Below are positions 5,201 to 18,403 of a stretch of DNA of 51,329 nt, one piece after another. The DNA comes from Gammaproteobacteria bacterium (GTDB taxonomy: Bacteria > Pseudomonadota > Gammaproteobacteria > Pseudomonadales > Azotimanducaceae). Both the position numbers and the translations under genes were made by a program. The notes under the pieces were generated by a model. It ran no database searches, was not told where the DNA came from, and saw only the letters and a program-made list of their open reading frames with translations. Position 1 is the first letter of the stretch. Every line of letters starts with the position of its first letter. The stretch spans positions 1-51,329 of the forward strand of contig VXYL01000052.1 in the NCBI GenBank assembly GCA_009846005.1, written 5' to 3'.

Positions 5201-5441
5201 CCTCTCGATCAGCGTCGACGACCGACTCGACACGGTCACCGAATTCCAGGTGGATGAGCCGATGCCGTGGGCGAACTGGCACGTCGGCCCGAAGAGCGAG
5301 ATTTTGAGGACCTGGGTAGTTCGCGGCTATCCAACATACCTGTTGGTGGACGCCGACGGCATCGTCCGTGCCAGGACCCACGACCTGGACGACGATCTGA
5401 CGGCGCTGATCGAACGCACCGTCAACGGAATGGCCGGCTAG
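2205..5441 (+). CDS. dsbD: DsbD/ScsB-type protein-disulfide reductase fused to a C-terminal TlpA-like thioredoxin
   Basis: This protein should carry electrons across the inner membrane to periplasmic disulfides. The start ATG at 2205 gives a clear signal peptide (MTPRFKRLSICAVMAILA...); ATG 2166 or GTG 2181 are alternatives. Domains, numbered from 2205: periplasmic DsbD-N-like domain (about 30-170) with C143 and C148 in VCDDELCVP; CcdA-like membrane region with C328 (LMPCVFP) and C452 (TPCTAPF); thioredoxin domain with WCLSC (C635, C638). After an Arg/Glu-rich linker and a helical region comes a second thioredoxin of TlpA type with WCGPC (C975, C978). At 1078 residues it is nearly twice a normal DsbD because of this extra C-terminal part. 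It ends 26 bases before yejB. Its position in the TTQ block suggests a role in forming the Cys-rich light chain, which is inference. Confidence 0.9.
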   Translation: MTPRFKRLSICAVMAILATQYVLVSAAERRTEYSTVDLIAEAASLPTDGGAVTLGIYLKPDPKWHAYWINPGDAGKEVSIRWSLPEGFDAGELQYPAPHVIPFDIFNTYGFDEAILLLADITVPALDAAGDVELKGRASWVVCDDELCVPERAELSITLPAGDGGIDPDNAPRFEAARAKQPKAVDWPARFEVVDGNVNIGVALPHAAMEPYLFVATKRLVRYDEQSSAETPFGLQFSAAAGTKADRIEGTKAVLSYRDADGADRSVLLDIARSDGALGDAMAAAGPVSSGGAGNVGGMGGIETAGMGLVTAIFFGLLGGIILNLMPCVFPILSMKALGLVELSGADRKTARSSGVYYTVGILAAFAAIAIALIVLREAGSAAGWGFQMQSPLVNLGLGLLMVAIALNLAGVYEFGLRFMGLGQSLTTDGSSGERKKAFFTGLLAVVVATPCTAPFMAGALGYALAQPAAVALAVFLALGLGLALPYLLLSFAPGLGRILPTPGPWMAKLRGVLAFPMLLTALWLFWIVGRQLGASSMAVALLAALSLAFALWAYGQAAGAKRRPAWHVTALAGLVACVVASVSVEDYRVEPQLASDASAGMLGKLELENFNPDRVLGYIGEGQPVFVYFTADWCLSCKANERAALATDAVGDAMNERGIKVVEADWTSEDPKITEWLEKYDRVGVPLYLYFPTGSTAETAAVLPQLLLPQIVIDAIDAADNAATVALADYGPLQTYLDLDKVWHEIEDEIRASDDSKEEKDRRREEERGPHPDIAPATAAAKAIVALEGEHERTVDAAVFLVEQTANADDMEIGALALMQHAPDHEDWPLLLWNLDFRADPGEKESIDALFDSIAKDASDPVHRAAARYFLASRKMRQVNDIKTAPEDRERYRDAAFALAEGLSTGVADEPFKTRRDREPLTLAEAERNLLNSFKFAVGGTLPDVTAVRLDGTEESFSAYANEVVLLDFWATWCGPCVKSLPALRELDESLPDDGFEILSISVDDRLDTVTEFQVDEPMPWANWHVGPKSEILRTWVVRGYPTYLLVDADGIVRARTHDLDDDLTALIERTVNGMAG

Positions 5442-5467
5442 CTGCCTTCGGCTGGGCGGCGAGGACG

Positions 5468-6514
5468 ATGACCAGCTACTTCATCCGCCGTTTCCTGCTC
5501 ATCATCCCGACGTTCATCGGCGTCACCATTCTCGTGTTCACGCTCACCCGCCTCGTGCCGGGGGGGCCCATCGAGCGGATGCTGAGCGAAGCGGCGCAGG
5601 CGGGAGCAGGCGAGACCAGCACGATTTCGGACTACGACGGCCGCGGCGGCAGCATGCTCTCGGACGAGCAACTCGAGGACCTGAAGGCATATTACGGGTT
5701 CGACAAGCCGGTGATCGTCGGCTACTTCGAGTGGCTCGGCAAGGTGCTCGTCCTCGACTTGGGCCGCTCCACACGCTACAACGACCCGGTCTGGGAGACC
5801 ATCCGCGACCGCCTTCCGATATCGATCTTCTACGGCGTCTGTACGCTGATCATCACCTACGGCGTGTGCATACCGCTCGGCATCTTCAAGGCGATACGCC
5901 ACAAGTCGGTCTTCGACAACCTGACCTCGGCCGTCGTCTTCGCGGGTTACGCCATACCGAGCTATGTCGTGGCGATCTTCCTGTTGACGGCTTTCGCCGC
6001 CAATCTTGAATGGTTTCCCCTGGGCGGCTTCGTGAGCGACGACTTTGCCGACTTCACGCTGATGGAGAAGATTGCGGACCTGTTCGATCACGCCGCCCTG
6101 CCCCTGATCGCCTACGTCGCGGGCTCCTTTGCCTTCACCACCATGCTGATGAAAAACTCGCTGATGGACAACCTCGCCGCCGAGTACGTGCGCACCGCCG
6201 TCGCCAAGGGACTGGACTTCAGGGGCGCGATCTTCGGGCACGCATTCCGCAACAGCCTCATTCCCATCGCCACCTCGTTCGGGAACAACATCACGCTGAT
6301 CATCACGGGTTCGTTTCTCATCGAGAAGATCTTCAATATCGACGGCTTCGGGCTGCTCGGCTTCGAGTCCCTCGTGGAGCGCGATTATCCGGTGGTGATG
6401 GGCATTCTCGTGATCTCGGCCCTCCTGTTCCTGATCGGCAACATCCTCTCCGACATCTGCGTCGCGATCGTCGACCCCCGGGTCAAATTCGGCAGCGGGG
6501 AGTCCGGCCAATGA
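5468..6514 (+). CDS. yejB: ABC importer permease, YejB-like (peptide/microcin C type)
   Basis: Inner-membrane subunit of a peptide-type ABC importer, 348 residues. The start MTSYFIRRFLLIIPTFIGVT is the classic first helix of the DppB/YejB family, followed by TRLVPGGPIERM. The long periplasmic stretch with DEQLEDLKAYYGFDKP is typical of YejB. The EAA loop that contacts the ATPase is near EYVRTAVAKGLDFRGAIFGH. The stop codon overlaps the next start as ATGA at 6511-6514, so both permeases are probably translated together. The family imports peptides or peptide-like compounds; the substrate here cannot be read from sequence. Confidence 0.92.
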   Translation: MTSYFIRRFLLIIPTFIGVTILVFTLTRLVPGGPIERMLSEAAQAGAGETSTISDYDGRGGSMLSDEQLEDLKAYYGFDKPVIVGYFEWLGKVLVLDLGRSTRYNDPVWETIRDRLPISIFYGVCTLIITYGVCIPLGIFKAIRHKSVFDNLTSAVVFAGYAIPSYVVAIFLLTAFAANLEWFPLGGFVSDDFADFTLMEKIADLFDHAALPLIAYVAGSFAFTTMLMKNSLMDNLAAEYVRTAVAKGLDFRGAIFGHAFRNSLIPIATSFGNNITLIITGSFLIEKIFNIDGFGLLGFESLVERDYPVVMGILVISALLFLIGNILSDICVAIVDPRVKFGSGESGQ

Positions 6515-7590
6515 ACGCCGTGCTAGCCCGCCTGAAGGAGAAACTCGCGCTCGACCCGCTCACCGTCAAGCAGTTCAAGCGGTTCCGGTCCATAAAGCGG
6601 GGCTACTACTCGGCCGTCGTTCTCGGAGTAATGATCGCGCTGTCCTTCGGCGCCGAGCTTCTCGTGAACAGCCGTGCTCTCGTCGTCTCCTACCAGGGAG
6701 AGCTTTTCTTCCCGACCTACGGCGACATCATTCCGGGCCGGACGTTCGGTCTCGACTACGACTACGAGACAGACTATCGGGAACTCGACCGCCTTCTCGA
6801 AGAACGTGGCGGCGCCGAGGGCTGGGTCCTGATGCCACCCGTACCGTACGACGCGCTGGAGAACGACTTGAGGGCCGGGGTGTACCCGCCCTACCCACCG
6901 TCCGTCGAGAGTGGACACTATCTCGGCACGGACTCGACCGGCCGCGACGTGCTGGCCCGGTTGATCTACGGCTTCCGCATTGCCTTCGCGTTTTCGTTCC
7001 TGCTGCTGCTCTGCAACTACCTGATCGGGATTGCCGTGGGCTGCGCCATGGGATTCTGGGGCGGCCTGTTCGACCTGATCTTCCAACGGGTGATTGAGAT
7101 CTGGAACATGGTGCCAACGCTCTACGTCATCATGATCGTCGCGAGCATCGTCGTCCCGACCTTCTGGACCCTGGCCGCCGTGATGGTGCTCTTCGGCTGG
7201 ACCGCGATGACCTGGAACATGCGCACATCCACCTACAAGGAGAAGTCTAGGGAGTACGTGCTTGCGGCACGGGCGCTAGGCGCATCGAACCCGCGCATGA
7301 TCGGCAGCCACGTCATCCCCAACACGATCTCGGTTATCGTGACCTTCATCCCGTTCTCCATCGCCGGCGGAATCACCTTGTTGACGGCGCTGGACTACCT
7401 GGGCTTCGGCCTTCCGCCGCCAACTCCGAGTTGGGGCGAACTTCTATCCCAGGGGACGAGCAATCTCGGATCGCCGTGGATCGTGTATTCGGTCGTCACC
7501 GCCATCGGCCTGGTACTGGTGATGGTGAACTATATCGGCGAGGCGATCCGTGAAGCGTTCGACCCCAAGAAGTTCACGTACTACGAGTAG
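6511..7590 (+). CDS. yejE: ABC importer permease, YejE-like
   Basis: Second permease of the importer, 359 residues, starting at the ATGA overlap with yejB. An N-terminal cytoplasmic stretch with KQFKRFRSIKRGYYS leads into the first helix. The long first periplasmic region (FPTYGDIIPGRTFGLDYDYE) and the GTDSTGRDVLARLIYGFR motif are hallmarks of YejE/DppC proteins. The EAA loop is EYVLAARALGASNPRMIGSH. The C-terminus FDPKKFTYYE is usual for YejE. The lipoprotein gene follows after 9 bases. Confidence 0.92.
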   Translation: MNAVLARLKEKLALDPLTVKQFKRFRSIKRGYYSAVVLGVMIALSFGAELLVNSRALVVSYQGELFFPTYGDIIPGRTFGLDYDYETDYRELDRLLEERGGAEGWVLMPPVPYDALENDLRAGVYPPYPPSVESGHYLGTDSTGRDVLARLIYGFRIAFAFSFLLLLCNYLIGIAVGCAMGFWGGLFDLIFQRVIEIWNMVPTLYVIMIVASIVVPTFWTLAAVMVLFGWTAMTWNMRTSTYKEKSREYVLAARALGASNPRMIGSHVIPNTISVIVTFIPFSIAGGITLLTALDYLGFGLPPPTPSWGELLSQGTSNLGSPWIVYSVVTAIGLVLVMVNYIGEAIREAFDPKKFTYYE

Positions 7591-7599
7591 GGAGGCGAC

Positions 7600-9594
7600 A
7601 TGGGCAAAGCAGCAGGAGATCGACATCGTTCGGGCGAGAACAAGGGGCGCCTCTACGGGTGGTGGCGCGGCTCGTGCAGCGCGCAGGCCGGTGTCGTCGT
7701 CGGGATGCTCCTCGTCGTGGGATGCGGCACCGAAACGCCGGCGGTCTTCCAAGCCCCGGTCGAGTCCGAGCAGGCACCCGTGCGAACCGGCGTCGTACTG
7801 CCGCCCGTCGAGGTGCAGGAAGGCGACGGCCTGCCCGGAATCCTCCCCGACGATCTCGTCTGGCTGACCAACGAAGACGATCCCGTCTACGCCTCGCCAC
7901 AGGCCAAGCGCGGGGGCACGCTACGTACAACGATCATTAGCTTTCCGCTCACCCTGCGCCGCGTAGGCCCGGACTCCAACGGATCGTTCGCGGGCTATAT
8001 CCGCCCCAACCAGTTCGGCCCGGTCGCACTCCATCCGCAAACACGGCGGGCAATCCCCGCGCTCGCCACGCATTGGGCCTTCGGCGCGGACGGACGCAGC
8101 ATCTACTACAAGCTGAACCCCGAAGCCCGCTGGTCCGACGGTGTGCCGGTCACCGCGGACGACTTCGTCTACGCGGTCCAGTTCATGCGTTCGAAGGAGA
8201 TCGTCGCGCCCTGGTACAACAACTTCTACACCGAGCGCATCCGGGACGTGAAGCGCTACGACGATCTCACCTACGGCATCCAAGGCGCGAGCCCCATGCC
8301 CGGGACCGAGATGCACGCCACCTACGCGTTCGGCCCCCAACCCAGGCACTTCCACGTTCTCACCGACGACTGGGTCGCCGAGTTCAACTGGAAAATCGAG
8401 CCCAACACGGGCCCCTACGAGATCACCCAGGTCCGCAAGGGCAAGTACATTGTCATGGAGCGAAAGGACGACTGGTGGGGAGACGATCTCAAGTACTTCA
8501 AGCATCGGTTCAATCCGGACAGGATCCACACGAAAGTGATCAGGGACAACAACGTGGCTTTCCAGCACTTCCTGAAGGGCGAGTTGGACACGTTCGGCCT
8601 GACGCTCCCCGTCTACTGGCACGACAAGGCCACCGGAGTGGCGTTCGACAAGGGCTATATCGCCAAGTACTGGTTCTACAGCGAAATCCCCGCTGCGTCC
8701 GGCATGTACCTCAACTCGGAAGATCCACTGCTCGCCGACGAACGCATCCGTTTCGGCCTGGCGCATTCGATGAACTTCGACCGCGTCATCGAGACCGTGC
8801 TGCGCGGCGACTACGAACGTCTGCCGACGTTCCAGATCGGCTTCGGCGAGTACGACAACCACGACATCAAGGCGCGGGCGTTCGATCTCGAGAAAGCCGA
8901 CGCCCACTTCAACGCCGCCGGCTTCGATGTTCGGGGCGGTGACGGCATTCGCGTGCGCGAAGACGGCCAGCGGCTGTCCTTCAAGGTGACCTACGGGTGG
9001 CCCGATCACACGGAACGCCTGGTGGTCCTCCAGGAGGAGGCCAAGAAGGCCGGCGTGGAACTGAAGCTGGATCTGCTCGACAGCGCGGGTTCCTTCAAGA
9101 AGATGCGCGAGAAGAAACACCAGATCGCGTGGTCGGGGTGGGCGGCCGGCGGATTGTCCCCGGGCTACTGGGAACACTTCCACTCGGTGAATGCCGGCAA
9201 GCCCCAGACCAACAACCTGACCAACCACGCCAATCCGGAGATGGACCCGCTGATAATGGCCTACCGGGTCTCGCCGAGCCTCGAGGAGCGCGTGGCGCTG
9301 GCACGACGCCTAGAGCAGATGGTTCACGACTCCGGCGTCGTGATTCCGACCTTCCGGGTGCCCTACACCCGCGCGGGCGCGTGGCGCTGGGTCAAGCTGC
9401 CGGAATGGCTGGGCACACGCACCGCCGCCTCGCTGTTCAGTCCCTTCGCCGACACCGGCGGCTTCTCCGGAGGTGGTCTGTTCTGGATCGACGTCGACGA
9501 AAAACGGCGCATCCGCGAGGCCAAGGACGATGGCCGGGTGTTCGAACCCGTCACCATCGTCAACACCGACTACCGGCGCGAACAGGCGAGCTAA
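7600..9594 (+). CDS. Extracellular solute-binding lipoprotein, family 5 (YejA-like), copy 1
   Basis: Substrate-binding component of the importer, 664 residues. The ATG at 7600 follows a GGAGG ribosome site (7591-7595). A long hydrophilic N-terminus precedes the hydrophobic stretch, and the lipobox VVGC places the lipidated Cys at residue 42, so the protein is membrane-anchored. The family-5 core is clear: RGGTLR, FPLTLRRVGPDSNGSF, LNPEARWSDGVPVTADDFVY, NTGPYEI and MNFDRVIETVLRGDYERL. It is closely similar along its whole length to the next gene, so the two arose by tandem duplication. They may differ in substrate, or one may supply higher capacity. Confidence 0.92.
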   Translation: MGKAAGDRHRSGENKGRLYGWWRGSCSAQAGVVVGMLLVVGCGTETPAVFQAPVESEQAPVRTGVVLPPVEVQEGDGLPGILPDDLVWLTNEDDPVYASPQAKRGGTLRTTIISFPLTLRRVGPDSNGSFAGYIRPNQFGPVALHPQTRRAIPALATHWAFGADGRSIYYKLNPEARWSDGVPVTADDFVYAVQFMRSKEIVAPWYNNFYTERIRDVKRYDDLTYGIQGASPMPGTEMHATYAFGPQPRHFHVLTDDWVAEFNWKIEPNTGPYEITQVRKGKYIVMERKDDWWGDDLKYFKHRFNPDRIHTKVIRDNNVAFQHFLKGELDTFGLTLPVYWHDKATGVAFDKGYIAKYWFYSEIPAASGMYLNSEDPLLADERIRFGLAHSMNFDRVIETVLRGDYERLPTFQIGFGEYDNHDIKARAFDLEKADAHFNAAGFDVRGGDGIRVREDGQRLSFKVTYGWPDHTERLVVLQEEAKKAGVELKLDLLDSAGSFKKMREKKHQIAWSGWAAGGLSPGYWEHFHSVNAGKPQTNNLTNHANPEMDPLIMAYRVSPSLEERVALARRLEQMVHDSGVVIPTFRVPYTRAGAWRWVKLPEWLGTRTAASLFSPFADTGGFSGGGLFWIDVDEKRRIREAKDDGRVFEPVTIVNTDYRREQAS

Positions 9595-9598
9595 GGCC

Positions 9599-11515
9599 GT
9601 GATCGCTGTCAGGTTCGCCGTCGCGGGTCTTGCCTTTGCAATCGCCGGATGCGGTGTCGAGTCCGACGTCTACAAGGAACTTGGCGAACCCGTCGAGGGT
9701 CCCGTGGAGGTCGGGGTCGAACTGTCGCCCATCGAGGTACAAGAAGGCGACGGCCTGCCGGACGAACTGCCCCCCGGCCTGGTCTGGGTGACGAATGAAG
9801 AGGATCCCGTGTTCGCGTCCGCCAGCGCGAAGCGGGGCGGCACGTTCCGCACCTATATCGACGGTTTTCCGCTCACCCTGCGCCGCGTCGGTCCCGACTC
9901 GAACGGATCCTTCGCGGGCTATCTGCGCCCCAACCATTTCGGTCCGGTTGCGCTCCATCCCGGCACCCGGCGCGCGATTCCCGCCCTCGCCACGCACTGG
10001 GCGTTCGGCGACGACGGGCGCAGCATCTACTATCGGCTGAATCCCGAGGCGCGCTGGTCCGACGGCGTGCCGGTCACCGCGGGCGACTTCGTGTTCGCCG
10101 TGCAGTTCATGCGCTCGGCGGAGATTGTCGCGCCCTGGTACAACGAGTACTACACCGAGCGCATCCGGGACGTGAAGCGCTACGACGACCTAACCTACGG
10201 CGTCCAGGGGGCGAACCCCAAACCCGGTGCCGAGATGCACGCCACCTACGGGTTCGGGCCCGTCGCGCGACATTTCCACGTGCTGACGGACGATTGGGTG
10301 GCGGAGGCCAACTGGGAGATCGAGCCGAATACCGGCCCCTACCAGGTCGGCGAAGTCCGCAAGGGCAAGTACATCGTCATGGAACGCAAAGACGACTGGT
10401 GGGGCGACGAGTCGAAATACTTCAAGCACCGGTTCAATCCGGACCGGATCCGCGTGCGGGTGATCCGCGACCCCAACGTGGCGTTTCAGCATTTCCTGAA
10501 GGGCGAGTTGGACACCTTCGGACTGGTCCTGCCGCAGTACTGGCACGACAAGGCCACCGGCGAGGAGTTCGACAAGGGCTACATCCGCAAATACTGGTTC
10601 TACAGCGAGCTGCCCGAGTCCGCCGGCATGTACCTGAACACGGCTGACCCCGTCCTTGGCGACGAACGTGTCCGCTTCGGCCTTGCCCACGCCATGAACT
10701 TCGACCGCGTCATCGCCACCGTTCTCCGCGGCGACTACGAGCGACTGCCGACCGTTCAGGCGGGATTCGGCGACTACGACAACCTCGACATCCAACCCCG
10801 GGAGTTCGACATCGACAAGGCTGGCGCCTACTTCGATGCCGCCGGTTTCGACAGCCGGGGTGGCGACGGCATTCGGGTCAAGGAGGGACAGCGCCTCACA
10901 TTCAAGATCACCTACGGCAATCCGCTACACACCGAACGGCTGGTGGTGTTGCAGGAAGAAGCAAAGAAGGCGGGTGTGGAACTCAGCCTGGACTTGCTCG
11001 ACGGCCCGGGATCCTTCAAGAAGATGCGCGAGAAGAAGCACCAGGTCGCCTGGACGGGATGGGGCGTCGGCGGACTGGCGCCGACGTTCTGGAGCTTTTT
11101 CCACTCCTCCGGGGCCAATGTGCCCCAGCGCAACAACTTCGCGAACTTTGCGAGCCCTCGAATGGACGCCTTGATCGACGCCTACCGGGCATCGGCGACC
11201 AAGAACGAGCGTGTTGAACTGGCGCGCGCCATCGAGCAGGTGGTCTACGATGCCGGCATCGTGATACCGACCTTCCGTGTCCCCTATACGCGCGCCGGGG
11301 CGTGGCGCTGGATCAAGCTCCCCGAGGGGCTCGCGACCCGTACGTCCGGTTCGTTGTTCAGCCCGTTCGCGAGTTCCGGCGGTTTCTCGGGGGGCGGACT
11401 GTTCTGGATCGACATCGAGGCAAAGCGGGAGACCCGGGATGCCAAGGAGCGGAACCGCCCCTTCGAACCGGCCACCATCGTCAACACGGACTATCGCGTC
11501 CGCTCTGGCGGCTGA
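9599..11515 (+). CDS. Extracellular solute-binding lipoprotein, family 5 (YejA-like), copy 2
   Basis: Paralogue of the preceding gene, 638 residues. The GTG at 9599, 4 bases after the upstream TAA, gives a short signal peptide (VIAVRFAVAGLAFAIAGC) with lipobox Cys at residue 18. This leader is unlike that of copy 1, while the mature parts align almost without gaps from EVQEGDGLP through to TIVNTDYR near the C-terminus. Differences cluster in small stretches, such as PVYWHDKATGVAF versus PQYWHDKATGEEF and the region before NNLTN/NNFAN, where pocket residues could differ. It ends 3 bases before the first ATPase gene. Confidence 0.9.
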   Translation: MIAVRFAVAGLAFAIAGCGVESDVYKELGEPVEGPVEVGVELSPIEVQEGDGLPDELPPGLVWVTNEEDPVFASASAKRGGTFRTYIDGFPLTLRRVGPDSNGSFAGYLRPNHFGPVALHPGTRRAIPALATHWAFGDDGRSIYYRLNPEARWSDGVPVTAGDFVFAVQFMRSAEIVAPWYNEYYTERIRDVKRYDDLTYGVQGANPKPGAEMHATYGFGPVARHFHVLTDDWVAEANWEIEPNTGPYQVGEVRKGKYIVMERKDDWWGDESKYFKHRFNPDRIRVRVIRDPNVAFQHFLKGELDTFGLVLPQYWHDKATGEEFDKGYIRKYWFYSELPESAGMYLNTADPVLGDERVRFGLAHAMNFDRVIATVLRGDYERLPTVQAGFGDYDNLDIQPREFDIDKAGAYFDAAGFDSRGGDGIRVKEGQRLTFKITYGNPLHTERLVVLQEEAKKAGVELSLDLLDGPGSFKKMREKKHQVAWTGWGVGGLAPTFWSFFHSSGANVPQRNNFANFASPRMDALIDAYRASATKNERVELARAIEQVVYDAGIVIPTFRVPYTRAGAWRWIKLPEGLATRTSGSLFSPFASSGGFSGGGLFWIDIEAKRETRDAKERNRPFEPATIVNTDYRVRSGG

Positions 11516-11518
11516 CCC

Positions 11519-12523
11519 ATGGCGCTCCTCGAAATCGACGAGCTTTCCGTCGCCTTCGACACCGAGGGCGAAACGGTGACCGTGGTCGACAAGGTGGGTT
11601 TCGAGGTCGAGCCCGGCGAGACGCTCGGCATCGTCGGCGAGTCGGGTTGCGGCAAGAGCGTCACCGCGCTGTCGATCATGGGACTGCTGCCCAAGCCATC
11701 CGGCCGCGTTCAGGGCGGCGACATCCGGTTCAGGGGCGAGAGCCTGCCGAGCCTCCCACCCGAGCGCATGCGCGAGATCCGCGGCAACCGCATCGCGATG
11801 ATCTTCCAGGAACCCATGACCGCGTTGAACCCGGTTCACCGCGTGGGGCGTCAACTCGCGGAGACCTACGCCTTGCACCAAGGCGACCTGCCCGACGAAG
11901 CCGTTTACCGCCGGACGCTCGGACTGCTGGAGCAAGTGGGTATTCCCGCCCCCGAGCAACGTCTGCGCGAGTACCCGCACCAACTCTCCGGCGGGATGCG
12001 GCAGCGCGTGATGATCGCCATGGCCTTGGCAAGCAAGCCGGATATCCTCATCGCCGACGAGCCGACCACGGCCCTCGACGTCACAATCCAGGCGCAGATC
12101 CTCGAACTGCTACGCGATCTGCAACGCGAAACCGGCATGGCGATCATCTTCATCACCCACGATCTCGGCGTCATCGCCGAACTCTGTTCGCGTGTCGTGG
12201 TCATGTATGCCGGCCGGGTGGCCGAGCAGGCCCCGATTGAACGACTCTTCGCCCATCCCGTGCATCCTTATACGCGGGGCCTCCTGGCGTCGATCCCCCG
12301 TCTCGAGGACGAGCCGAAGACGATGTTGACCACGATCCCCGGCGTCGTCCCCAGCATCGAGGAACTGCCGAGCGGCTGCCGATTCGCCAACCGTTGTCCG
12401 TACGTCAAGGATCTGTGCAATCGGGACGCACCGGAACTGGTTTCGGCTGCGCGGGGACACCAGGTTGCCTGCCATCGCTGGCGGGAAGTCGACGCCGGTG
12501 CCTTGGAGCAGTGGGGAACATGA
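11519..12523 (+). CDS. ABC importer ATPase, DppD/OppD type
   Basis: Cytoplasmic ATPase of 334 residues that powers the importer. Walker A is GESGCGKS, the signature is [15 protein letters not shown], Walker B is [12 protein letters not shown] and the switch His is in ITHDLG. The C-terminal oligopeptide-transporter extension carries four Cys ([14 protein letters not shown] ... ACHRW), as is usual in the family. The two ATPases are separate genes here, while the Yej system of E. coli has one fused YejF, so this is a hybrid layout. The stop overlaps the next start as ATGA at 12520-12523. Confidence 0.92.
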
Positions 12524-13506
12524 CCGCGCCTCCCAGCGAGCCGCTCTTGCGCGTGCGAGGACTCACCAAGCACTTCCCCGTGCGCGGCGGCATCTTCCTG
12601 CGCACAACCGGCCACGTTCACGCCGTGGACGACGTGTCCTTCGACCTCGACGTCGGCGAGACCATCGGTCTGGTCGGCGAGTCCGGGTGCGGCAAGAGCA
12701 CGGTCGGCAAGACCCTGCTGCGCCTCCACGAACCCACTGCCGGCGAGGTATTGTTCGAGGGCCGCGACATCACCACGATGGGACGAACGGAGCTGCGCCA
12801 GCTACGGCGCGACATCCAGATCATCCTGCAGGATCCGTTCGAGTCCCTGAACGCCCGGCACACAGTCGGCAAGATTCTCGAGGAACCGTTCGTGATCCAC
12901 CGTATCGGCACGACGCAGGAACGTCGTCGCTGGGTCGGCGAGCTACTCGAACGGGTAGGCTTGAGCCCGGCTGCGGCGAGTCGGTTCCCACACGAGTTTT
13001 CGGGCGGCCAACGCCAGCGCATCGGCATCGCCCGTGCGATTGCGCTCAGACCGAAACTCATCGTCTGCGACGAGGCGGTTTCCGCCCTCGACGTCTCCAT
13101 CCAGTCGCAGATCATCAACCTGCTGCTCGACCTGCAGCGCGAGATGCACCTCGCGCTCATCTTCATCGCCCACGATCTCGCCGTCGTCAAGCATGTCTCC
13201 GACCGCATCGCGGTGATGTACCTCGGCGAGGTGGTCGAAGCCGCCACCGCGAAAGACATCTATGCAGCGCCGCGTCATCCCTACACCCAAGCGTTGATCT
13301 CCGCCATTCCGCTACCCGATCCCACCGCCGACCGGGACCGCATCGTCCTGGTCGGCGACGTGCCCTCCCCAATCGATCCGCCCAGCGGCTGCCGCTTCCA
13401 CACCCGTTGCCGCCACGCCCGAGAGGACTGCAGGCGGAGTAAACCGACGCTGGACACGGTGCGGGGCGGTTCCGTGGCGTGCCACTACTGGCGCGGCTTG
13501 TCGTAG
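12520..13506 (+). CDS. ABC importer ATPase, DppF/OppF type
   Basis: Second ATPase, 328 residues, translationally coupled to the first. It has the OppF/DppF-type opening [20 protein letters not shown]. Walker A is GESGCGKST, the signature [15 protein letters not shown], Walker [13 protein letters not shown] and the switch His is in IAHDLAVV. The C-terminal Cys cluster is [14 protein letters not shown] ... ACHYW. Together with the upstream ATPase and two permeases it makes a complete four-part translocator. Confidence 0.92.
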
Positions 13507-13507
13507 G

Positions 13508-14753
13508 GTGAAGCGAACGTCAAGTCGCCGAGACTTTGTCGGCCGGCTTGGCGGTTTCATGGTCGGTGCTGGCGCACTGCCGTTGCTGCCCGCGTGCCGT
13601 GCGCCCCGTCCCGCCCCGGACACACAGGGGGATCCCGCCGGGCTCGCCGCGGCAGCCGTCGCGCCCGGGTTCTCAACGTCCAATTGGTACTGCGTCAGGC
13701 GCAACGGTACTCCGCAACAGCGCGGCTGGACCGACGAGCAGGATCCCGTTCGAATCGCGGCGAACACCGGCGCGGGTCGCGGCGATGTCGTGGAGGTTTG
13801 CGTTTCGGGCACCCCGCGCGACGTGCCACCAAATCGGTTCTCGCGGTCCTTCTACAACCGTGGCGCGGAGATCCGCGATGCCGCGCGACGCAATCTGCGC
13901 TACAACCTGAACCGGTACTTCCATCCCCTCGAGGACGGACGGGGGGTGATTGTCGAATCGACGGGGGCGAAACTAGGCGCCGCCGCGCTCGCTGCGCTGG
14001 CGATCCTAGAAAACCCCGCCCGAGGCGAGTTCTCAACCGCATTGGGCATGCTGGCGAAGGGCGTGAACTCGATGTTCGACGAGCAGCGCGGCTTCCGCAC
14101 CTTCTTCTTCCCTCCCGAACGCGACGGCCAGAACTGGAACTTCTACTCCGGCGAGGCGCTCTTGTTCTGCGCCGAGGCACTGCGCCGGCGTTCGCCTTCG
14201 GCACCGCCGTTGGACAAGTGCATGAGAGCGTTCGAGGCTTGCCGCGACCGGCACCGCGAGCCAGCGCAATCCCGCGTTCGTGCCGTGGCATACCCAGGCC
14301 TGTACCGCGCTCTACGCGGTTACCCGGGAGCGCCGATTGGCCGATTGGGTCTTCGAGATGAACGACTGGCTGCTGCCCATGCAGCAATGGGATGGAATCG
14401 ACGACGACGTGCGTGGGCGTTTCTACGACCCGAACCGCAGGCATTTTGGCCCGCCGCATGCGTCCTCAACCGCGGTCTACTGCGAGGGCCTCGCCGATGC
14501 GGCCGCGTTGGCCCGCGAAGTTGGGGACAGTGCGCGAACGGCGCTCTACGAACGAGCAGTCGACCGGGGCATGCGTTCGCTACGCCAACTGCAGTTCCGC
14601 GACGAGCGGGACGCCTTCTATGTCTCGCGAAGGCATCGCGTGATGGGCGGCTTGCGTACCACGGTCTACGACAACGCGGTTCGCGTCGACTCCGCCGGCC
14701 ACGCCCTCGCGGCGGCCTTGAAGGTGTCGCATCCGATAGGGTTCGGCGGCTAA
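13508..14753 (+). pseudogene. Tat-exported, helical (alpha/alpha-toroid-like) protein, interrupted by a frameshift
   Basis: Reading starts at GTG 13508, one base after the ATPase stop. A twin-arginine leader (SRRDFVGRLGG ... GALPLLPAC) may end in a lipobox Cys. The first frame is convincing up to about 14260 (NWNFYSGEALLFCAEALRRR ... FEACRDRHRE). The sense then moves to another frame (NPAFVPWHTQACTALYAV ... VDSAGHALAAALKVSH) and ends at 14753. One extra base between about 14225 and 14270 would explain this; a sequencing error or a real mutation are both possible. Paired helices rich in aromatic residues recall glycosidase/epimerase-like toroids, but I do not recognise the family. Its leader closely resembles that of the TTQ light chain (SRRGFIGRVG ... 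GALPLLPV), so a role with that enzyme is plausible. Confidence 0.65.
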
Positions 14754-14945: not shown

Positions 14946-15039
14946 CTCGTTGTCCCTATAGCTACGTCCGCGACGCGCGGTTGCCGTCCGGCGCGCAACC
15001 CGACACACTCATGTGGATCGTACGCTTCGGTCCAGCTTG

Positions 15040-16143
15040 ATGCGCCACACCCATTCCCGCTGTGGAGTCACGTTCCTTGCCTGCCTGCTTGCGTCTACCG
15101 CCTCGGGCGCAGGCGTGGCGACCGAGACAATCTCGACGACGGAATTGGGCCCCGCAGCCCCCACGTGGTTCGTGGTGAAGGCCGCGCTCGGGGCCGGCTA
15201 CGTCTTCGATGCCGCCGACGGCGAGATGATCGGCACACTGTCCCTGACGCCATGGACACCCACGGTGCGCCGACATGCCGAGCGCGGTGAGATCTACGCC
15301 GCTGAGACTCACTACTCCCGCCGACACGACGGCGAACGCACCGATGTACTGCGCATCTATGCCCACGAGACGCTCTCGCCCGCGGGCGAGATCCCAATCC
15401 CGAAGAAGATTGCCGCCCTGCACGCGCACTACTTGGGGATCCTGTCCGGCGGACGCTTCGTCACGGTCTACAACATGACACCGGCGCAGTCCGTGTCGGT
15501 GGTGGATGTCGAGAACCGGCGCTTCGTCGGCGAGATCTCGACGCCCGGTTGCGCGGTCACGTTGCCGACGAGCGAGCCCGGGTTCCTGATGATGTGCGGC
15601 AACGGAACGCTGCAATGGATCGGGCTCGACGAGAACGGCGGCGAGGCCAACCGGGTGCGCAGCCCGTCGTTCTTCTCGGTTGAGGACGATCCCCTGTTCG
15701 ACCAACCGACACGCACGCCCGCAGGCTGGCAGTTCCTGAGCTTCGCCGGTCAGACCATGGAAGCCCGCGTCGAGAACGACGACATCGTCATCGGCGAGTC
15801 CTGGTCGATACTGGGCGAGGACGACGAAGGATGGCGCCCGGGCGGCGGCCAACCGGCCACTTTCCATGCGGGCCACGATCTGCTGGTTGTCCTGATGCAC
15901 CAAGGCGGTGTCGATACGCAGGACCAGGACGGTACCGAAGCCTGGGTGCTCGACCGCGGCACCCAGCGTCGGATCGGTCGCATCACCTTCGAGGCGCCGG
16001 CCTCCGGGTTGCTGGTGGTGGAAGGCGATGAACCGCTGCTGCTCGCGTCGATCGGCGGCAGTGTCCATGTCTTCGAACTGGCCACCGGTATTCGGGCGCG
16101 CGTCGTCCAGACGAACCGCGGCGGCTCGCTGCTGCGGTATTGA
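15040..16143 (+). CDS. mauB: TTQ amine dehydrogenase, large (heavy) subunit, MauB/AauB-like
   Basis: Beta-propeller subunit of a periplasmic methylamine/aromatic-amine dehydrogenase; it holds the TTQ-bearing light chain and shapes the substrate channel. ATG 15040 gives a signal peptide (MRHTHSRCGVTFLACLLASTASGA); GTG 15013 is an alternative. Repeating propeller-like blades (YVFDAADGEMIGTL, VSVVDVENRRFVGEI, WVLDRGTQRRIGRI, VHVFELATGIRARV) match the family. At 367 residues it is near the usual length. The gene order B-E-D-A and the trailing cytochrome match the aromatic-amine dehydrogenase (aau) operon as I know it. The substrate amine cannot be fixed from the sequence. Confidence 0.88.
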   Translation: MRHTHSRCGVTFLACLLASTASGAGVATETISTTELGPAAPTWFVVKAALGAGYVFDAADGEMIGTLSLTPWTPTVRRHAERGEIYAAETHYSRRHDGERTDVLRIYAHETLSPAGEIPIPKKIAALHAHYLGILSGGRFVTVYNMTPAQSVSVVDVENRRFVGEISTPGCAVTLPTSEPGFLMMCGNGTLQWIGLDENGGEANRVRSPSFFSVEDDPLFDQPTRTPAGWQFLSFAGQTMEARVENDDIVIGESWSILGEDDEGWRPGGGQPATFHAGHDLLVVLMHQGGVDTQDQDGTEAWVLDRGTQRRIGRITFEAPASGLLVVEGDEPLLLASIGGSVHVFELATGIRARVVQTNRGGSLLRY

Positions 16144-16165: not shown

Positions 16166-16690
16166 ATGCTTGCCGCCGCCCTGGGGTTCGCGCTGCTCCT
16201 CGGTACGGGTTCATGGCGCAAACTCCGCAGTCTGGACGAGTTCCGGGCCGTATTGGCGGACTACCGGCTGGTGCCGGCACGTGCGACCAAGCCTGCGGCG
16301 TTCGTGGTTGCATTGGTCGAGGGGGTGCTTTCAGGGTTTTGGCTGGTCGCACCGTGGCGCGTCGAAGCAGCCGTCCTTGCGAGTGTCGGCACGGCGCTGT
16401 TGATGGCCGCATACGGCGGCGCGATCACCGCCAACCTGCTACGGGGGCGATCCTGGATCGATTGCGGCTGCGGTGGCGGCGAGCAGCTCTCCTGGTTCCT
16501 GGTCGTCCGCAACCTCGTGCTGACCGGCTTCGCACTCATGCCCCTCGCACTCATCGACGCACTACCGCGGTGGAAAGACCTCGCCGTATCGGTGCCGGTC
16601 TTCGCGGTCGCCGCGCTGCTGTACCTCGCGACCCGCACATTGCTCGAAAACGCAGCGGCTATGCGTGTTTTCACCGAACCAACACGATGA
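16166..16690 (+). CDS. mauE: MauE-like membrane protein for TTQ enzyme maturation
   Basis: Integral membrane protein of 174 residues with about four or five hydrophobic segments (MLAAALGFALLLG, AFVVALVEGVLSGFWLV, AAVLASVGTALLMAAYGGA, FLVVRNLVLTGFALMPLAL). The CGC motif (C100, C102, in IDCGCGGGEQ) is typical of MauE and probably handles electrons or disulfides together with MauD. A GGAAGG ribosome site at 16153-16158 supports ATG 16166. The stop overlaps mauD as ATGA (16687-16690). MauE is known to be needed for a stable light chain. Confidence 0.88.
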   Translation: MLAAALGFALLLGTGSWRKLRSLDEFRAVLADYRLVPARATKPAAFVVALVEGVLSGFWLVAPWRVEAAVLASVGTALLMAAYGGAITANLLRGRSWIDCGCGGGEQLSWFLVVRNLVLTGFALMPLALIDALPRWKDLAVSVPVFAVAALLYLATRTLLENAAAMRVFTEPTR

Positions 16691-17313
16691 CCGCCGGTGT
16701 GGTGCTCGACGTCGTGCTCTGGCTGCTCGTCGGCGTGTTGACGATCGCCGTGCTCGCTCTGGCTCGCCAGGTGGGCGTGCTGAGCCAGCGTGTCGCACCG
16801 GCCGGTGCATTGACGCCGAAGACCGGGCCGAAGATCGGCGAACTCACCGAGGTGCTGGAGACCGATGACCTCAACGGCACGCGACAACGAATCGGCGGCC
16901 CCAAGTCGGAACGAACCGTCTTGGTGTTATTCATTTCCCCGACCTGTCCCGTCTGCAAGGCGCTGCTGCCCGCCGCGAAGTCGTTGGCAACGACGGAACG
17001 ACTCCGTCTCGTCTTCGCAAGCGACGGCTTCGACCCGGGGCGGCATCGTGCGTTTTCGAAAGATGTCGGGATCCAACACTATCCGTACATAGTTTCGCAG
17101 GAACTTGGCCTCCGATACGGGGTGAGCCGATTGCCCTTCGCGGTGCTGATCGGCGCCGACGGCGTGTTGCTCGGGCGCGCCCTGGTGAATACCCGCGAGC
17201 ACCTCGAGAGCTTGATGGAGTCCTGGCGCAGCGGTGTCGCCACGCTGCAGGACTTCGTTCAGTCGGCCACCGTGCACGAGGTTGCGGACAAAGAGACGAA
17301 GGAGACTTCATGA
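16687..17313 (+). CDS. mauD: MauD-like membrane-anchored thioredoxin for light-chain disulfides
   Basis: 208 residues with an N-terminal membrane anchor (VVLDVVLWLLVGVLTIAVLA) and a periplasmic thioredoxin fold. The active site is CPVC (C87, C90) in SPTCPVCKALLPAAK, and the cis-Pro region is GVSRLPFAVLIG. In methylamine dehydrogenase systems MauD supports formation of the many light-chain disulfides. It is coupled by ATGA overlaps to mauE upstream and to mauA downstream, so the dose of maturation factor and enzyme is linked. Confidence 0.9.
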   Translation: MTAGVVLDVVLWLLVGVLTIAVLALARQVGVLSQRVAPAGALTPKTGPKIGELTEVLETDDLNGTRQRIGGPKSERTVLVLFISPTCPVCKALLPAAKSLATTERLRLVFASDGFDPGRHRAFSKDVGIQHYPYIVSQELGLRYGVSRLPFAVLIGADGVLLGRALVNTREHLESLMESWRSGVATLQDFVQSATVHEVADKETKETS

Positions 17314-17930
17314 TGGGCACCGACCGTGGCACCTCCATCGCGCGGTGGTTCGATGCGGCAACGAGACGCACCACAACGGGCCTCGCCGAGCGAACGTCTC
17401 GGCGCGGGTTCATCGGTCGTGTCGGTACACTGCTCGCCGGTTCCGGGGCGTTGCCACTGCTACCCGTCTCCCGCGCGTTCGGCGCGGAGGACGCCGCCGA
17501 AACCACCGCCGCAGTCGGCGACACCGTCGAAAACCTAACCGAGTTCGGCGATCCCAAGTCCTGCGACTACTGGCGCTATTGCGCCTTGGGCGGCAGCCTG
17601 TGCGCCTGCTGCGGCGGCGGTCCGAGCAAGTGCCCGCCGGGCGCCGAACCTTCGCCGATCACGTGGATCGGTACCTGCCGCAACCCCGTCGACGGCAAGC
17701 AGTACCTAATCTCCTACAACGACTGCTGCGGCAAGGAAGTCTGCCCGCGCTGCTTCTGCCATCGCACCGAGGGCGCGAAACCGGTCTATTTCCCGAGCAA
17801 GAGCAGCAATGTGCTGTGGTGTTTCGGCGTCGACAGCAACGCATACCACTGCACGCTGGCCACGGTAATCGGCGACGCGCCGGACGAGGCCCCGACCGAG
17901 AGGAAAGAGGCATCGACCGCCGACCCATGA
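17310..17930 (+). CDS. mauA: TTQ amine dehydrogenase light chain, MauA/AauA-like, with Tat signal
   Basis: Catalytic subunit that oxidises a primary amine with tryptophan tryptophylquinone. An AAGGAG ribosome site precedes ATG 17310. The Tat leader is SRRGFIGRVG ... GALPLLP. In the mature part, W119 (PSPITWIGTC) and W170 (SSNVLWCFG) are 51 residues apart, the same spacing as the two TTQ tryptophans in known enzymes. D138 (SYNDCCGK) matches the catalytic Asp. There are 14 Cys, as expected for many disulfides. The odd point is G94 (CALGGSLC): known methylamine and aromatic-amine enzymes have a second active-site Asp exactly 25 residues before the first TTQ Trp. Overall it looks nearer to the aromatic-amine type. 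No mauG is in the window. Confidence 0.93.
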   Translation: MMGTDRGTSIARWFDAATRRTTTGLAERTSRRGFIGRVGTLLAGSGALPLLPVSRAFGAEDAAETTAAVGDTVENLTEFGDPKSCDYWRYCALGGSLCACCGGGPSKCPPGAEPSPITWIGTCRNPVDGKQYLISYNDCCGKEVCPRCFCHRTEGAKPVYFPSKSSNVLWCFGVDSNAYHCTLATVIGDAPDEAPTERKEASTADP

Positions 17931-18403
17931 CGCGCACCCGGCGTTCGCCGCGCTCTTGGACGATTTTCCTAGCGGCGCTCGGATCTGTTGCCCTCGCCTA
18001 TGCGGCCGACACCGCTCAACATGACACGGACGACAATCTCGGCGCGCGTGCGAACGACGCAGCCCGGTTCGACTACCTGCTCCACTGCTCCGGATGCCAC
18101 CGCCCGGACGGCACCGGAGCGGCACCCGAGGTCCCATCTCTACGAGACGCGGTGGGCTCATTGGTGGCCACGCCCGAAGGCCGCGATTACATCGCCCGTG
18201 TCCCTGAAGTCGCCCAATCGCCCCTCGACGACGACGATCTCGCAAGGCTTCTGAACTGGATCCTGCAGGAGTTCAACGCCGACACCTTGCCGGACGGATT
18301 CCGCCCACTGGAGGGTGCCGAGGTAGGAGCAGCCCGTGCACGCATCCTCGCCGACCCGATACGCGCCCGGGAGAAAATCGTCGGCGCCTACCAGGAAGAG
18401 TGA
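17927..18403 (+). CDS. Periplasmic monoheme cytochrome c of the amine dehydrogenase operon
   Basis: Small cytochrome of 158 residues, the likely electron acceptor or next carrier after the TTQ enzyme. A signal peptide (RSWTIFLAALGSVALAYAA) precedes the heme site CSGCH (C54, C57, H58). It shows the late segment of this subfamily (YIARVPEVAQSPLDDDDLARLLNWILQEF). The mature protein contains no Met at all, so the usual Met sixth ligand is missing; the LNW-M position that one expects in relatives reads Ile here. It starts on the ATGA overlap with mauA and is the last gene of the operon. Confidence 0.88.
   Translation: MTRTRRSPRSWTIFLAALGSVALAYAADTAQHDTDDNLGARANDAARFDYLLHCSGCHRPDGTGAAPEVPSLRDAVGSLVATPEGRDYIARVPEVAQSPLDDDDLARLLNWILQEFNADTLPDGFRPLEGAEVGAARARILADPIRAREKIVGAYQEE

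Follow-up and report, generated by a model that had tools for sequence, protein, structure and literature searches.

Does an amine dehydrogenase light chain with glycine in place of its second active-site aspartate still belong to a working TTQ enzyme? The question is raised by a locus in a 51,329-nucleotide stretch of DNA from a gammaproteobacterium of the family Azotimanducaceae (contig VXYL01000052.1), which was analyzed as a whole and is referred to as the window. A first-pass annotation of this DNA had noted Gly at the position where methylamine dehydrogenase (MADH) and aromatic amine dehydrogenase (AADH) carry Asp. From this residue, it had proposed either changed chemistry or another maturation route, with the rest of the active site kept.

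The Light Chain of the Window Lacks the Second Active-Site Aspartate

Translation of positions 17310-17927 yielded a protein of 206 aa (Table 1). With a score of 163.6 bits against PF02975 (cut-off 25), it matches the profile of the TTQ light chain family, while its score against the MADH equivalog TIGR02659 (184 bits) was below the cut-off of 196.85. The protein carries a twin-arginine-like leader, for which the TAT-signal match was weak and below the cut-off (E = 0.053).

In the translated sequence CDYWRYCALGGSLCACC, Trp119 and Trp170 are 51 residues apart, Asp138 follows Trp119 by 19 residues, and Gly94 precedes Trp119 by 25 residues, exactly as read in the first-pass annotation. Gly94 is flanked by Ala92 and Leu93 on one side and Gly95 on the other. 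HMMER alignments to the PDB light chains of MADH and AADH contained no gap over the site (CDYWRYCALGGSLC aligned with CDYWRHCAVDGFLC), and MauA of Paracoccus denitrificans PD1222 (L203) has Asp in this column, within the motif CSIDG. Therefore, no Asp is concealed by a shifted gap, a possibility that the annotation had left to an alignment with MADH, AADH, and homologs. We regard the absence of Asp at column 94 as confirmed by these alignments. We take this column to be that of Asp32 in MADH and Asp84 in AADH, which fits the 25-residue distance to Trp57 and Trp109, respectively. Thr182 presumably lies near the active site as well, judged by homology. An AlphaFold model (19 rows) was of low confidence (mean pLDDT 46.7, pTM 0.31).

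The remainder of the site is kept, as the annotation had also held. Both tryptophans and Asp138 were invariant in all covered rows of the light-chain set described below (Table 1), through Gly, Ser, and Asp types.

Table 1. Positions of the operon genes and of the active-site codons of the light chain in the window
Feature	Positions	Strand	Evidence
Amine dehydrogenase heavy chain (MauB/AauB-like)	15013..16143	+	Pfam PF06433, E 1.3e-27
MauE-like membrane protein (start codon picked by eye)	16166..16690	+	Pfam PF07291, E 5e-20
MauD-like thioredoxin-fold accessory protein	16693..17313	+	NCBIfam TIGR02661, E 1e-48
TTQ-type light chain (MauA/AauA-like), 206 aa	17310..17930	+	Pfam PF02975, E 2.5e-48
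Gly94 codon, GGC	17589..17591	+	Ungapped alignment; column of presumed MADH Asp32 / AADH Asp84
Trp119 codon, first TTQ tryptophan	17664..17666	+	W in 167/167 covered rows
Asp138 codon, retained active-site Asp (presumably MADH Asp76 / AADH Asp128)	17721..17723	+	D in 167/167 covered rows
Trp170 codon, second TTQ tryptophan	17817..17819	+	W in 168/168 covered rows
Cytochrome c, one CxxCH (residue 54)	17927..18403	+	Pfam PF00034, E 1.7e-5

The Operon Has the Gene Order of aau Clusters

The five genes of the operon are closely spaced, and stop and start codons overlap at the MauD/light chain and light chain/cytochrome c junctions. The heavy chain is nearer to that of AADH than to that of MADH, its best PDB matches (134.5 vs. 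84.3 bits). The MauD-like protein scored 165.4 bits against TIGR02661, below the cut-off of 188.6. The gene order, heavy chain-MauE-MauD-light chain-cytochrome c, is identical to the annotated order aauB-mauE-mauD-aauA-cytochrome c on a Pseudomonas plasmid (L206). Neither of these two clusters has MauG beside the operon, and the aau cluster of Alcaligenes faecalis presumably lacks mauG, too. Judged by its nearest heavy chain and its gene order, the window enzyme appears to be of the aau (AADH) type and may oxidize aromatic or aralkyl amines. It differs from AADH by Gly in place of Asp84 and by residues 151, 153, 169, 172, 182, and 189, which follow the pattern of the clade described below, unlike most Asp-type rows. 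Additionally, a C-terminal tail of some 10-20 residues is found in the window protein and in the closely related L034-L036.

The light chain is 40% identical to MauA of P. denitrificans (L203) over the aligned part, and the Trp pair, the counterpart of Asp138, MauE, and MauD are common to the window and the mau cluster. In contrast, the window has Gly for Asp32 and a cytochrome c where the mau cluster has amicyanin. The mau cluster further contains mauF, mauJ, and MauG; neither mauF nor mauJ was seen beside the window operon. Both hallmarks of amicyanin-type MADH are missing from the window, namely a score above the TIGR02659 cut-off and a cluster with amicyanin and MauG.

Upstream of the operon, positions 5267-13506 hold a peptide-type ABC transporter set, comprising a permease, two family 5 solute-binding proteins, and two ATPase-like ORFs (assigned by eye). 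At positions 13508-14753, we observed a gene that is seemingly divided between two frames (13508 onwards and 14280-14753); by eye, its leader is similar to the light-chain leader. A search of the fetched loci at E 1e-10 yielded no relative, and Pfam no match.

Gly and Ser at Column 94 Recur in Related Light Chains

Light chains were collected from the relatives, class, phylum, and family of the window and from 20 named contigs, resulting in 210 matches and 172 distinct envelopes, of which 171 were counted as rows, as two envelopes had the same name. A residue at column 94 is present in 168 rows, namely Asp in 121, Gly in 36, Ser in 10, and Ala in a single weak fragment (L135), with three further rows gapped; since the sampling was centered on the window's family, these counts are no frequencies for all bacteria. 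Gly or Ser thus occurs in 46 of the 168 distinct rows, which are clustered on the tree, a pattern beyond what chance would give. Asp is absent from the window protein and from 46 further distinct rows, the Ala fragment included, and therefore we do not treat an Asp 25 residues before the first Trp as family-defining. Cys was present in at least 162 rows at each of the 11 cysteine columns examined.

Within the window's family, the Gly/Ser type extends over 13 genera. It also occurs outside this family, in two loci labeled Woeseiaceae (L040 and L042) and, as Ser, in L084, which belongs to a different family of the same order. A light chain was found in 95 genomes of the window's family, 94 of which have a row in the set, and one genome (G102) could not be scored. 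The 93 scoreable genomes comprise 52 with only the Asp type, 35 with only the Gly/Ser type, and 6 with both, an Asp-type light chain being present in 58 of the 93. All eight plasmid reference clusters examined (of 30 plasmid hits), L203 included, have Asp at column 94. Several family genomes (L156, L164, L178, and others) have two Asp-type light-chain genes on the same strand, separated by about 2.8-2.9 kb.

The kind of enzyme is already known. The variant itself, Gly or Ser at this site, was not found in the literature searched, as far as the accessible texts go; most subscription journals were outside the scope of this search, which makes it weak evidence of absence. We know of no purified Gly/Ser member.

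Asp-type light chains of the same bacterial family belong to the same protein family and have the same core neighbors, and differ by Asp in place of Gly/Ser at residue 94. Neighbors were counted for 90 loci with enough flank, with distinct light-chain ORFs in 34 Gly/Ser and 50 Asp loci. ORFs were picked greedily, and the counts are lower bounds: the heavy-chain cluster was near at least 28/34 Gly/Ser and 48/50 Asp loci, MauE near at least 15/34 and 20/50, MauD near at least 17/34 and 34/50, and cytochrome c near at least 21/34 and 31/50. By contrast, two further neighbors, each named by eye from one member, were found mostly at Asp loci: a TetR-like regulator (16/50 Asp vs. 0/34 Gly/Ser distinct loci) and a TonB-receptor-like protein (21/50 vs. 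1/34).

Light and Heavy Chains of the Gly/Ser Type Form Clades

A quick tree was built from 167 rows, excluding L135 and the three gapped rows; on this tree, the distribution of Asp and non-Asp takes four changes. Two long-branched rows, L075 (Gly) and L137 (Ser), fell outside the main non-Asp group. With L075, L137, and most Asp rows left out, a careful tree of 69 rows recovered 44 Gly/Ser rows together with two Asp rows (L029 and L039) as one clade (support 98/93.6). Constraining the 44 Gly/Ser rows together without L029 and L039 was not rejected (p-AU = 0.127). Counter-evidence came from an earlier careful tree (72 rows) that also included L048, L049, and L091: here, the Gly/Ser rows emerged from an unresolved fork shared with 16 Asp rows. 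Overall, the trees support Gly/Ser for Asp as a trait conserved within a clade.

The heavy-chain partners of Gly/Ser-type light chains also form a clade of their own. In a heavy-chain tree of 56 rows, one branch divides the partners of Asp-type from those of Gly/Ser-type light chains (97% SH-aLRT), and a tree of 99 rows contains a group of 33 Gly/Ser rows plus one Asp row, L039 (support 93, a value taken from the re-rooted tree). Since L039 sits in the Gly/Ser group of the heavy-chain tree as well, its Asp is probably a reversal. The nesting of L029 and L039 among Gly/Ser rows suggests that column 94 is able to switch in both directions. Column 94 of the 46-row clade contains Gly (35), Ser (9), and Asp (2) and nothing else, which suggests that small size is important at residue 94.

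The Gly/Ser clade also differs at residues 96, 133, 151, 153, 161, 169, 172, 182, and 189. Residue 96, for instance, changes from mostly Phe/Tyr to mostly Thr/Ser/Ala. With nine further residues altered, the active site of the clade may function differently. Most of these residues are shared by the two nested Asp rows; they are clade markers and need not be tied to the loss of Asp. Two candidate partners of the replacement were considered. The acid at residue 189, which is Glu or Asp in 31 of the 36 Gly rows, is unlikely to be compensating, as the nested Asp94 rows L029 and L039 also have Glu there. The change from Asn169 to Leu was rejected as an obligate partner, since P. denitrificans MauA combines Ile with Asp94 and four rows combine Leu with Asp94.

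Between the window gene and five genus mates (L032-L036), dN/dS was 0.041-0.055 over residues 80-190 and 0.106-0.140 over the whole gene. For L038, the value was 0.084 in the stretch of residues 80-190 (dS 2.1), with saturation across the full gene; the comparison with L037 was saturated. All seven relatives compared have Gly at the site, encoded by GGC, GGG, or GGA. The low dN/dS and the synonymous codon turnover at the site mean that the light chain is under purifying selection and is a maintained protein. A decaying gene, a sequencing error, or a misalignment had been conceivable as long as the observation concerned one site in one genome; with Gly in 36 and Ser in 10 distinct rows, purifying selection, and gap-free alignments at the site, we reject all three as having next to no probability.

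MauG Does Not Follow the Residue at Column 94

In order to follow MauG, we used the protein of the L084 operon as query, which is canonical (357-358 bits to the PDB MauG chains, against 140.5 for the best of the other chains). It was searched in 206 family genomes with cut-offs of E 1e-25 and 250 bits. A match at E 1e-25 or better was found in 25 of the 206 genomes. In 11 of the family genomes, a match exceeded 250 bits, and every other match was below 130. Canonical MauG was present in 3/52 Asp-only, 4/35 Gly/Ser-only, and 4/6 both-type genomes and was not found in G102; the low occurrence may partly reflect draft genomes. The presence of MauG fails to separate Asp-only from Gly/Ser-only genomes, although it is common in the few genomes that have both types. 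A loss of MauG as partner of the loss of Asp is not supported, as MauG is rare in Asp-only genomes, too.

No CCP_MauG match was found on the window's contig, and at E 1e-25 the window's genome yielded no canonical MauG. The genome has three CCP_MauG matches (L196, L197, and L198). L196 is nearest to cytochrome c peroxidases, and L197 to the diheme enzyme of PDB 6e1c (348 bits, compared to 97 bits for MauG). An ORF upstream of L197, which lies on another contig than the window, may encode an MbnP-type partner, as in MbnH/MbnP pairs.

In L084, a Ser-type light chain is followed downstream by a cytochrome c and canonical MauG in the same direction. The cytochrome c had no Pfam match and is 39% identical to that of the window over 110 residues. 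The presence of MauG in this operon is what one would expect if maturation went on despite the missing Asp. Together with the MauG counts and the shared operon neighbors of both types, it leaves unsupported the part of the first-pass annotation that linked Gly to another maturation route. Changed chemistry in the Gly/Ser enzyme, its other proposal, we regard as possible.

A Predicted TTQ Dehydrogenase with One Active-Site Aspartate

We consider it probable that the window encodes a TTQ-bearing light chain of an aau-type enzyme and that it belongs to a subfamily, predicted to be working, with Gly or Ser in place of the second active-site Asp. Such enzymes are most likely TTQ dehydrogenases that work with one active-site Asp, and the conserved clade suggests that the aspartate at column 94 is dispensable. 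The enzyme would be periplasmic, with a TTQ still formed from Trp119 and Trp170 of the light chain. It would oxidize a primary amine with Asp138 as the sole remaining one of the two active-site carboxylates, and we infer that the counterpart in the TTQ enzyme is Asp138, not residue 94. Electrons would then pass to the cytochrome c encoded alongside. The invariance of both tryptophans and Asp138 supports this reading, as do the conserved cysteines, the aau gene order, the low dN/dS, the light- and heavy-chain clades, and the MauG of the L084 operon. Counting against it, a 2005 paper reportedly describes the active-site aspartates of MADH as critical for TTQ biogenesis, all eight plasmid clusters examined retain Asp, and the clade differs at nine further residues.

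The loss of the acidic side chain could have changed the choice of substrate, with a wider or less negative pocket accepting other amines (e.g., anionic or bulky ones) and the same TTQ chemistry. The separate heavy-chain clade, the co-occurrence of both types in 6 of the 93 scoreable family genomes, which suits a division of labor, and the altered residue 96 all point in this direction, whereas the covarying residues are clade markers, most of them shared with the two nested Asp rows. We hold this idea tentatively, as a serious contender short of an even chance; it is compatible with a working enzyme that has one active-site Asp.

A further possibility would be an incomplete TTQ, that is, a partly oxidized or other Trp-derived group, or a light chain that serves only as an electron carrier. 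The reported role of the MADH aspartates would favor this, as would the window's genome, with no canonical MauG at E 1e-25 and two of its three CCP_MauG matches nearest to 6e1c and cytochrome c peroxidases. However, both Trp and Asp138 are invariant, 49 of the 52 Asp-only genomes are also without canonical MauG at the same threshold, and one Ser-type operon (L084) retains it. Therefore, we consider an incomplete TTQ unlikely. The most far-reaching version of the working-enzyme reading is similarly improbable as a whole: a widespread and so far unrecognized subfamily of TTQ dehydrogenases that dispenses with one of the two Asp regarded as critical for TTQ biogenesis, matures mostly free of MauG, and accepts a novel class of amines in its less negative pocket.

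The Gly/Ser light chains represent a natural set in which one active-site Asp is absent from a whole clade and the other never varies, and which could separate two roles, Asp138 being essential and Asp94 replaceable. With related Asp-, Gly-, and Ser-type enzymes in genomes with and without MauG, this set would allow asking what the formation of TTQ needs.
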